A DNA stretch of 64,000 bases from Effusibacillus dendaii (GTDB lineage: Bacteria; Bacillota; Bacilli; Tumebacillales; Effusibacillaceae): positions 1 to 64,000 of the forward strand of contig NZ_AP023366.1 of assembly GCF_015097055.1 (NCBI RefSeq). Direction: 5' to 3'. The number at the start of each line of letters is the position of its first letter. Position 1 is the first letter of the stretch. The notes under the pieces are model-generated. The model was not told the DNA's origin. It made no database searches and saw nothing but the letters and a program-made list of their open reading frames with translations. Shown in pieces: positions 9,404-52,699 of the stretch. The translations under genes and the position numbers were made by a program.

Positions 9404-9418
9404 ATGGGAGGCTTCCAA

Positions 9419-9982
9419 ATGTCGATAGTTACAAGCAAACAAGCAATGCTGGAAGAACATATTCGGGCGATCCTGGAATTGATAGGTGAAGATCCCAACC
9501 GTGAGGGATTACTGGATACTCCTAAACGTGTTGCAAAAATGTACCAAGAGGTCTTTGCGGGTGTAGGAGTAAACCCGAAAACTGCCTTGACCACCACGTT
9601 TGAGGAAGAGTATGACGGGCTTGTTGTTGTAAAAGACATCAATTACCACACTTTCTGTGAGCATCACTTGATTCCTTTTTACGGCAAAGTTCACGTTGGG
9701 TATCTCCCTAAGGGAAGAATTGTAGGTTTAAGCAAATTCGCTCGTTTAGTGGAACTGTTAGCGCAGAGACCGCAAGTTCAAGAGCGAATGACGCAACAAA
9801 TAGCAGATGCAATCATGGAGGCTCTTGAGCCTAAAGGAGTCATTGTCAAAGTGGCAGGGGTTCACCTCTGTATGTGCGCGCGCGGTGTAAAGAAGCCCGG
9901 AACGGAAACTGTAACTTTGGTCAAGAAGGGTATCTTTGCGGAGAATGATTTGTTGGTGCAAGAATTCGAACAGTCCCTCTAA
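9419..9982 (+). CDS. folE: GTP cyclohydrolase I
   Basis: FolE converts GTP to 7,8-dihydroneopterin triphosphate, the first step to folate, tetrahydrobiopterin and queuosine precursors. The 188-residue length is typical. Zinc ligands are visible as Cys80 and the CEHH pair (His82/His83 region) and the C-terminal Cys in HLCMCARG (151/153). The substrate-binding GRIVGLSKFARLVELLAQRP is intact. The upstream ATG at 9404 overlaps the GGGAGG ribosome site, so ATG 9419 is the start. It sits directly between a STAS gene and the PTPS gene, rather than with folate genes, which points to a dedicated pterin product. Confidence 0.96.
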   Translation: MSIVTSKQAMLEEHIRAILELIGEDPNREGLLDTPKRVAKMYQEVFAGVGVNPKTALTTTFEEEYDGLVVVKDINYHTFCEHHLIPFYGKVHVGYLPKGRIVGLSKFARLVELLAQRPQVQERMTQQIADAIMEALEPKGVIVKVAGVHLCMCARGVKKPGTETVTLVKKGIFAENDLLVQEFEQSL

Positions 9983-10007
9983 GGCAGCCAAGAGGAAGGT
10001 GATTCTA

Positions 10008-10826
10008 ATGATCTATATGTCCAGGAGAGTGGACTTTTCCGCTGCACATGTGTACAGGAAAGCGTCTTGGAGCAACGAGAGAAACGTTCGGGTGTTTGGT
10101 GCATGCAGCAATCCGAACGGTCATGGCCATGATTATGTATTGGAAGTTATGGTTAGGGGTCATTTGGATGCCAGATCCGGGATTGTCGTCAACATCGTTG
10201 ATATAGACAGGATTGTTAAGGGAATCATCCGTAACGAATTGGACGGGAAGTTTTTGGATCGCGAACACTCTTATTTTAAAGAAAAAATACCCACAACGGA
10301 AAATATCGTCGAATATCTCTGGTCCAGATTCGATGGCGCTTTTCCAAATTGCGAACTTTATAAAATTCGCTTACAGGAGAATCCGTTCCTATTTTCGGAA
10401 AAAGAGGGAGAATCAATGGTTACATTGACAAGGAAATATCACTTTAGCGCCGCTCATCGGCTCCATAGCGATTTTTTGACGGAAGAAGAAAATGCAGCTA
10501 TATTCGGGAAATGCAACAATCCTCATGGGCATGGCCATAATTATCGTCTTGAAGTTACTGTTAGCGGGAGTCCAGATCCCGAGACCGGAATGATTGTGAA
10601 TTTGACCGATCTGGATCGAACCATTGAACGCGTTGTTCTGGATAAATTTGACCATAAGCATTTGAATCTCGATACGGAGGAGTTCAAAAACCTGAATCCA
10701 ACGTCCGAAGTGGTTGCGTTGGTTATATGGAATATGCTTGAGCCGCACATCCCAAATCTTTATAAAATCGGGCTTTGGGAGACGGAGAAAAATTATTTTG
10801 AATACTGCGGACCGGTAAAGGAGTAA
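10008..10826 (+). CDS. Tandem 6-pyruvoyl-tetrahydropterin synthase (two fused copies)
   Basis: The 272-residue protein is two PTPS/QueD domains in a row (about 1-135 and 137-272). Both keep zinc histidines (FSAAH at 11-14 and 147-150; HGHDY and HGHNY) and the catalytic Cys (GACSNP, Cys33; GKCNNP, Cys169). The second copy keeps the Asp-His pair (FDHK, 215-216) and LWETEKN, very like eukaryotic PTPS. The first has LDGK, so its His is replaced by Gly80. A GAGGGAG site at 10404-10410 lies 5 bp before an internal ATG (10416), so the C-terminal copy may also be made alone. GGAAGGTGA supports the ATG at 10008. Expected product from FolE's product: 6-pyruvoyl-tetrahydropterin or 6-carboxy-tetrahydropterin. 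Confidence 0.9.
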   Translation: MIYMSRRVDFSAAHVYRKASWSNERNVRVFGACSNPNGHGHDYVLEVMVRGHLDARSGIVVNIVDIDRIVKGIIRNELDGKFLDREHSYFKEKIPTTENIVEYLWSRFDGAFPNCELYKIRLQENPFLFSEKEGESMVTLTRKYHFSAAHRLHSDFLTEEENAAIFGKCNNPHGHGHNYRLEVTVSGSPDPETGMIVNLTDLDRTIERVVLDKFDHKHLNLDTEEFKNLNPTSEVVALVIWNMLEPHIPNLYKIGLWETEKNYFEYCGPVKE

Positions 10827-15868: not shown

Positions 15869-15898
15869 GCCCTTCTTATTACAAAGGGCATATTTTTT
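15869..15898. terminator. Bidirectional terminator between MaoC and OsmC-like genes
   Basis: GCCCTT and AAGGGC form a stem followed by ATATTTTTT on the plus strand, and by TTATTT on the minus strand. It serves the converging genes on both sides. Confidence 0.7.
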
Positions 15899-15903
15899 AA
15901 ATT

Positions 15904-16374
15904 CTATTCTTCCGTTATAACCCAAGAATGATCAAATTGGATACATCCTTTCAATGTTTGAGCAACAGGACAACCACGTTCAAATACGGATAAAGCGCGT
16001 TCTGCTGCTTCACGCGAACCTTTTGGGACAATGATTTCATAATGACAACTTATTTTAGTGATTTTTAAAACTCCTTCGGGAGCTTCAATTGTACCCTGAA
16101 TTTCAGCACGCAGCCTGTTGGGGGATGTGGGGATTTTACGCGCTTCCAGCGCGCCGGCTAGAGTTCCTACGAGTCAGCCACCAGCGGCAGCTACGATATG
16201 ATCTAAGGTGGATGGATATTCTACCTCTGGTTGTACTCCGTAGAATTGTTTTACTCCTCCGTGAACACCGTAATATACAGGTTGTTCAAAATCGCCAATA
16301 TAAGCACGTCTGATCTTATTGGCTGTATCTTCTTGTATAATGGTGATTTTCGTTAATTCAATCGGTTGACTCAA
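15904..16374 (-). CDS. OsmC-family protein, probable selenoprotein (in-frame TGA as Sec67)
   Basis: The reading frame is open on both sides of one TGA at 16174-16176. Together the halves give a full-length OsmC/Ohr-like protein of 156 residues. The TGA falls in IVAAAGG-U-LVGTLAGALEAR, exactly where OsmC proteins have their peroxidatic Cys. The second redox Cys is kept (RGCPVAQ, Cys135). The family reduces organic hydroperoxides. OsmC-like selenoproteins are known from metagenomic surveys. A stem-loop 20-34 nt after the TGA could be the SECIS. The start is TTG 16374 after AAGGAAGGTGA. The alternative, a nonsense-mutated pseudogene, is less likely because the downstream half is perfectly conserved and a second such gene exists at 40 kb. 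Confidence 0.8.
16139..16153 (-). promoter_or_regulatory. Putative bacterial SECIS of the OsmC-like gene
   Basis: On the minus strand CGCGC-TGGAA-GCGCG forms a 5-bp GC stem with a UGGAA loop. The loop begins about 25 nt downstream of the UGA and has G early in the loop. This fits the loose rules for bacterial SECIS elements that bind SelB. Confidence 0.6.
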
Positions 16375-16440
16375 ATGACTCACCTTCCTTGCTATTGGAT
16401 AGTGTTTCAATAATGAAAGGATACAATTAAATCCGATATC

Positions 16441-52115: not shown

Positions 52116-52345
52116 TCGAATCGAATAACCGCCTGCACGAAGCCATCCATCGATGGATGGCAAGCTTATTGCGATACGTATGAAAAATTGCTTGACCTGT
52201 ACTCGCAATCCTCGATGCCGCAGATGCGGCAGGAGTATCTGGAGAAACTGAAAAAACGGCTCCCACGTGGGCGACAGCCATTGAAAATCGGGAAGGCATT
52301 CATGGCTAGGGTGAAATGCCGGGTGACCCGTTATACAATAGTTGC
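52116..52345. other. Gap with an unassigned short frame
   Basis: A plus-strand frame without a clear start reads CDTYEKLLDLYSQSSMPQMR and ends VRVTRYTIVAPFGG-like near 52362. It is helix-forming but unrecognised and may be a remnant. No other gene is seen. Confidence 0.3.
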
Positions 52346-52425
52346 CCCCTTTGGGGGGTGACTCAAAGCGTTGCAGAGTAGACCGCTGAGTTGTCAGTTC
52401 AAGGGCGGTCTATTTCTTTTTCTTT
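52311..52425 (+). ncRNA. Candidate antisense antitoxin RNA
   Basis: A possible promoter (GTGAAA 52311, 17 bp, TACAAT 52334-52339) is followed about 45 bp later by a strong terminator: TAGACCGC ... GGCGGTCTA then TTTCTTTTTCTTT ending about 52425. The short RNA would overlap the 3' end of the convergent peptide gene at 52410, the arrangement of TxpA/RatA and BsrG/SR4. Confidence 0.5.
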
Positions 52426-52493
52426 CCCGACAGGAATAGAGCGACCAACACACCGAAAGAAATCATGAGGGAGATCGCCTCATAAACCGTCAT
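52410..52493 (-). CDS. Putative holin-like type I toxin peptide (27 aa)
   Basis: The peptide begins MTVYEAISLMISFGVLVALF and ends LSGKKKK: a single membrane helix with a basic tail. This matches the family annotated as putative holin-like toxin (TxpA/BsrG-type). AAAGGGGTGATGCC lies before the ATG. Such peptides depolarise or disturb the membrane unless an antisense RNA blocks translation. The converging terminator on the plus strand supports that reading. Confidence 0.7.
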   Translation of the reverse strand: MTVYEAISLMISFGVLVALFLSGKKKK

Positions 52494-52699
52494 GGCATCA
52501 CCCCTTTCTTTCGGGGATCAGCCCCAACCGCCCTTGTTCCATGAGCATAAATTTGTGAATATCCTATAGCAGCTTCTTTTCTTCAATTCTCTATATTGTT
52601 TAGCCTGCCATTGCTATGAATTCTGCTGCGAGAATCATATGTTCGGGCTAAATGTCATACATTAGTTAAAAATGATAGAGCGCGGAAGGAGAAGCCGGA

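Follow-up and report, generated by a model that had tools for sequence, protein, structure and literature searches.

A predicted selenocysteine-containing OsmC-superfamily protein of Effusibacillus dendaii with a conserved in-frame TGA across Bacillota

The OsmC-like gene of the window, the 64,000-nucleotide stretch of Effusibacillus dendaii DNA analyzed here, occupies positions 15904 to 16374 on the minus strand and runs from a TTG start (16374-16372) to a stop at 15906-15904, specifying 156 residues. Its translation reads LSQPIELTKITIIQ...DHIVAAAGG-U-LVGTLAGALEARK...ERGCPVAQTLKG...ITEE*, the sole in-frame stop before the normal end being the TGA at 16176-16174 (residue 67), and Cys135, the presumed resolving cysteine (15970-15972), sits downstream in RGCPVAQTL. 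The positions, the residue numbers, the retained Cys135 and the intact frame past the TGA were all correctly given in the original prediction, which had left the strand unstated. By direct reading, a Shine-Dalgarno-like AGGAAGGTG is located 6 nt 5' of the start (16381-16389, minus strand), and the common N-terminus of the homologues, MSxPIELT, is in line with the assigned TTG. A terminator-like hairpin 3' of the gene (15869-15889, minus strand; one found versus 0.5 expected) is common to a convergent plus-strand gene, and a sigma-70 promoter scan of the minus strand returned no promoter. With the TGA read as Cys, residues 53-149 match the OsmC domain of Pfam (PF02566, E 4.6e-13) at 49.9 bits, above the gathering score of 27.5 and congruent with the family originally proposed. 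The TGA aligns with the peroxidatic Cys of OsmC/Ohr proteins (1qwi, 1ukk and 1ml8).

We searched 84,980 species genomes for relatives, using peptide patterns placed outside residue 67, and obtained 58 across Bacillota at 62-81% identity, mostly from Bacillaceae, Planococcaceae (Caryophanaceae) and Thermoactinomycetaceae. Residue 67 is TGA in every one of the 58, and Cys135 is present in 57; in the remaining one (L073) a frameshift past residue 67 leaves Cys135 unplaceable. Among the aligned homologues the TGA is found at the same codon in 59/59, a conservation that in this comparison is far beyond chance, and Cys135 is similarly invariant (49/49 in alignment A1, 59/59 homologues). The gene is carried by 13 of 399 genomes sampled from the class, as 14 intact copies and one frameshifted copy (G103), by four more genomes outside the class in a sample of 398 from the phylum, and by 10 of 46 Planococcus genomes, in each case with TGA at the site. 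Exchange of Cys for Sec at residue 67, which the original prediction had suggested looking for among relatives, did not materialize: every full-length relative has Sec, and no full-length Cys version was detected among the 58 relatives or in the class, phylum or genus samples. Next below the intact copies in the class ranking are a 33-residue remnant (G006) and then Cys-type OsmC/Ohr proteins, and the only Cys-type relatives are such distant OsmC/Ohr proteins at about 20-40 bits (<41).

In the tree, the window gene is nested among Bacillaceae sequences, in a clade of 43 supported at 98/93. As it groups there and not with the same-genus copy in G001, to which it is 61% identical, the topology suggests horizontal transfer or an old duplication. 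Searches of plasmid sequences and viral contigs gave no match to the gene.

A single in-frame stop resembles a decaying gene, and decayed copies are indeed known: L079 (G006) is a C-terminal remnant, and L073 (a Cytobacillus strain) and L094 (G103) are frameshifted. That the TGA acts as an ordinary stop, within a pseudogene, through a sequencing error or at the end of a truncated 66-residue protein, is nevertheless very improbable considering its presence at one codon in homologues from many families, and also conflicts with the pattern of substitution. Across the 59 homologues, mean pairwise pN is 0.21 versus a pS of 0.80 downstream of the hairpin described below, and 0.12 versus 0.77 upstream of the TGA. 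Protein change is thus constrained after the TGA, and therefore the downstream half is translated and selected; the neutral decay named in the original prediction as a possible counterindication gives way to strong purifying selection in the relatives. Together, the TGA conservation and the downstream selection lead us to reject a pseudogene or a sequencing error. The stop reading is further contradicted by selA in every carrier and by synonymous freezing at the hairpin.

The hairpin, GCGCGC-UGGAA-GCGCGU (16138-16154, minus strand), was recognized from frozen synonymous sites, pair counts and alifold. Its stem (16154-16149 with 16143-16138) begins 19 nt and its loop (16148-16144) 25 nt after the TGA, confirming the GC hairpin anticipated at about this distance. 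It coincides with codons 74-79, where pS falls to 0.19 in the 59 homologues, with most other codons near synonymous saturation, and where GCG, CTG and GCG are found at four- and six-fold degenerate codons in 59/59. The stem so formed has six pairs and carries a UGGAN loop; at its base the pairs are G-U with C-G (43), G-C with U-G (11) or G-C with C-G (5), so that pairing is kept in every sequence, as is the small apical loop with its G (59/59). The same hairpin recurs at much greater divergence (L115), in the most distant of the four phylum-level carriers (G754, 110.8 bits). Taken as a single sequence the hairpin is moderately exceptional, synonymous shuffles matching it at a frequency of about 0.02. 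Shuffled versions of the surrounding 86-nt region fold at least as well (z +1.3), so it is the synonymous freezing across homologues that carries the RNA evidence; Rfam at gathering thresholds reported no SECIS at the gene. In place and shape the hairpin is what is expected of a bacterial SECIS, and we assign codons 74-79 as the predicted selenocysteine insertion element. Judged by these comparative data, UGA67 is no terminator, with the half beyond it translated, under selection and accompanied by a conserved hairpin 25 nt downstream.

The machinery for selenocysteine was assessed in the host genome (G000, one contig of 3.45 Mb). The sel genes, which the original prediction had proposed as a check, are all present above their family cut-offs: selA (1296725-1298086, 609.9 bits), selB (2810980-2812854, 400.9 bits), selD (1295746-1296675, 421.6 bits) and a tRNA-Sec (1353285-1353377, 66.4 bits against a cut-off of 47) with, by reading, a TCA anticodon. 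Within this set, selD has an in-frame TGA of its own and adjoins selA (L074/L075 region, G000:C1:1295746-1298086), and selB and tRNA-Sec lie elsewhere in the genome. While selB, selD and tRNA-Sec were scored in the host only, selA was scored also in the other carriers, and exceeds its cut-off in 13/13 carriers of the OsmC gene versus 85/399 class genomes overall (hypergeometric P 8.6e-10), and in 4/4 of the phylum-level carriers outside the class. Shared ancestry confounds less within a single genus (Planococcus, judging by sequences that match named loci of the tree exactly), and there selA is found in 24/46 genomes and 10/10 carriers (P 4.8e-4). Both P values assume independent genomes, which genomes are not, yet the direction is uniform.

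The frame would likewise stay open if a general suppressor, or a variant of the genetic code, had UGA67 read as some other amino acid. Against this, the carriers are genomes with selA, residue 67 is aligned with the catalytic Cys, and the codon is followed by the conserved hairpin. A reassigned code would moreover place TGA in many genes, whereas in a scan by eye of TGA-interrupted frames only the OsmC-like gene and an AhpD-like gene stood out. We consider such decoding practically negligible in probability, and selenocysteine decoding at UGA67, as predicted from the combined sequence evidence, close to certain.

The AlphaFold2 model of the window protein (pLDDT 92) displays the OsmC fold, with structural matches to 2onf (Z 14.8), 1nye (E. 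coli OsmC, Z 13.7) and 1ml8 (YhfA, Z 13.4), and with OsmC/Ohr structures matching at Z 13-15 over about 139 residues. A modeled fold in common with OsmC/Ohr does not, however, establish a common function. Sec67 and Cys135 are invariant and occupy both Ohr/OsmC redox positions, and G70 and T71 are also invariant, giving the motif U-L-x-G-T. In Ohr/OsmC proteins a catalytic Glu is located ten residues upstream of the peroxidatic Cys. At this position, placed by extending the alignment to 1qwi without gaps, the family has Leu57 in 49/49, with Asp58 adjacent. Position 22 is Arg or Lys in 49/49, and could either correspond to the catalytic Arg of the N-terminal strands or be unrelated to it. Hence, the organic hydroperoxide reductases of the Ohr/OsmC type resemble the window protein in fold (Z ~11-14) and in the two redox positions, and differ from it, at 12-23% identity, in the Glu replaced by Leu57, in an Arg of unclear equivalence and in Cys for Sec. 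With an invariant Leu57 instead of Glu, the peroxidase chemistry may differ.

The best solved-structure match by sequence profile is E. coli YhfA (1ml8, E 7e-6), belonging to a branch that has both cysteines but neither the Arg nor the Glu close to the peroxidatic one, and is of unknown function (PMC8945050, PMC4069020). The two share the motif (AAGGC in YhfA, AAAGGU in the window protein), a downstream Cys and the absence of Glu from the Ohr/OsmC position; they are set apart by Sec versus Cys, an identity of about 17% and an N-terminal part that is unaligned by sequence. It is consequently a serious possibility, though one we place somewhat below even, that the protein has the OsmC fold and selenocysteine but performs another thiol or selenol reaction in YhfA-like manner, for example as a disulfide or selenium-compound reductase. 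The YhfA match, the invariant Leu57 and the Sec-only nature of the family fit such a reaction, whereas retention of both Sec67 and Cys135 as in Ohr/OsmC points away from it, as do matches of the NCBIfam OsmC peroxiredoxin model TIGR03562 to 49/49 members, the window protein scoring far below the cut-off of this model. The selenocysteine originally predicted at the peroxidatic cysteine hence stands as a position, by alignment to OsmC/Ohr, while peroxidase activity is something we only infer.

A hydroperoxide is in our estimation the most likely single type of physiological substrate by analogy, at about an even chance. A clue to the substrate is missing from the gene neighborhood because this is not conserved; overlapping artefact frames aside, even the most recurrent flanking gene is seen at 7 or fewer of the 58 loci. 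From established biology, SelA and SelD would make Sec-tRNA(Sec), and SelB carrying it would bind the hairpin of codons 74-79 and insert Sec at UGA67. By homology and fold, Sec67 lies in the long OsmC helix, and its selenolate would act as the nucleophile toward an organic hydroperoxide or related electrophile, reducing it. Cys135 would then resolve the resulting selenenic acid by forming a selenenylsulfide, which may be re-reduced by a dithiol of low molecular weight or of the lipoyl type. By analogy, we hold with good confidence that Sec67 and Cys135 act as a redox pair. The whole explanation, a genuine selenoprotein encoded by an OsmC-superfamily gene, with Sec67 decoding and the proposed redox mechanism, we regard as very likely.

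As the original prediction noted, OsmC-like selenoproteins are known from environmental surveys: a family was reported in 2005 from the Sargasso Sea (COG1765/PF02566), with the motif UxxT and Cys homologues (PMC1088965), and is listed in PMC9312934 and, still as UxxT, in 2026 (PMC13188914). The window subfamily is similar in combining an OsmC domain containing Sec with a bacterial SECIS-like hairpin after the UGA, but has the motif U-L-x-G-T and no Cys orthologue in our searches, whereas the Sargasso family was found through its Cys homologues. NF041052 (OsmC_like_Se), which we take to be the model of the Sargasso family, gives 21 bits for the window protein, short of the cut-off of 95, and weak matches to the 49 members (best E 1.1e-6). 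Indeed, no model of the NCBIfam library fits the window protein above cut-off, and standard annotation therefore probably splits or truncates the gene; prior annotation of this Sec-only UxxGT subfamily elsewhere is possible. The Sargasso Sea pipeline demanded Cys homologues of its candidates, which could explain how a Sec-only subfamily was missed.

Tentatively, and with somewhat less than even confidence, we propose a Sec-obligate OsmC subfamily in Bacillota that has no Cys orthologue and a selenium-dependent chemistry unlike that of the Ohr/OsmC peroxidases, given the lack of the catalytic Glu, and that was possibly overlooked by searches for Sec/Cys pairs and by current family models. The OsmC-like selenoproteins known so far come from a small number of marine metagenome sequences and have Cys homologues, whereas this subfamily is widespread in cultured Bacillota, seemingly in the selenium form only. 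As such occurrence implies that Cys may not easily replace Sec, the subfamily is well suited to asking why proteins retain Sec, and its nearly invariant hairpin offers a clean model of how SelB of Gram-positive bacteria recognizes RNA.

The AhpD-like gene, also named in the original prediction, is found at 40430-39891 on the minus strand, with an in-frame TGA at 40190-40188 in a CxxU motif (CPFU) and a hairpin 18 nt downstream of this TGA. The frame was confirmed, with a TGA-bearing relative of 67% identity in G006, other relatives being mostly stop-free at about 35%. Close relatives are restricted to G000 and G006 among the 399 class genomes, and in G006 the OsmC gene is the remnant. A functional pairing of the AhpD-like CxxU protein with the OsmC selenoprotein was considered and is unsupported, the other OsmC carriers in the sample being without this AhpD-like gene. 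Consequently, of the two recoded peroxide-defense proteins that had been claimed for the window, both TGA genes are real, while the label is overstated, since the function of the YhfA branch is unknown, the Ohr/OsmC Glu is not conserved and the AhpD-like gene is missing from other OsmC carriers; for the OsmC-like selenoprotein, a role in peroxide defense is plausible.

Elsewhere in the window, an Rfam match to BsrG at 52320-52555 on the minus strand (60.6 bits against a cut-off of 55), with the small hydrophobic peptide MTVYEAISLMISFGVLVALFLSGKKKK, looks by sequence like a type I toxin-antitoxin unit. As read by eye, a single plus-strand frame at 9936-10826 apparently holds two tandem 6-pyruvoyl-tetrahydropterin-synthase/QueD-like domains, preceded by a FolE-like gene at 9404-9982.
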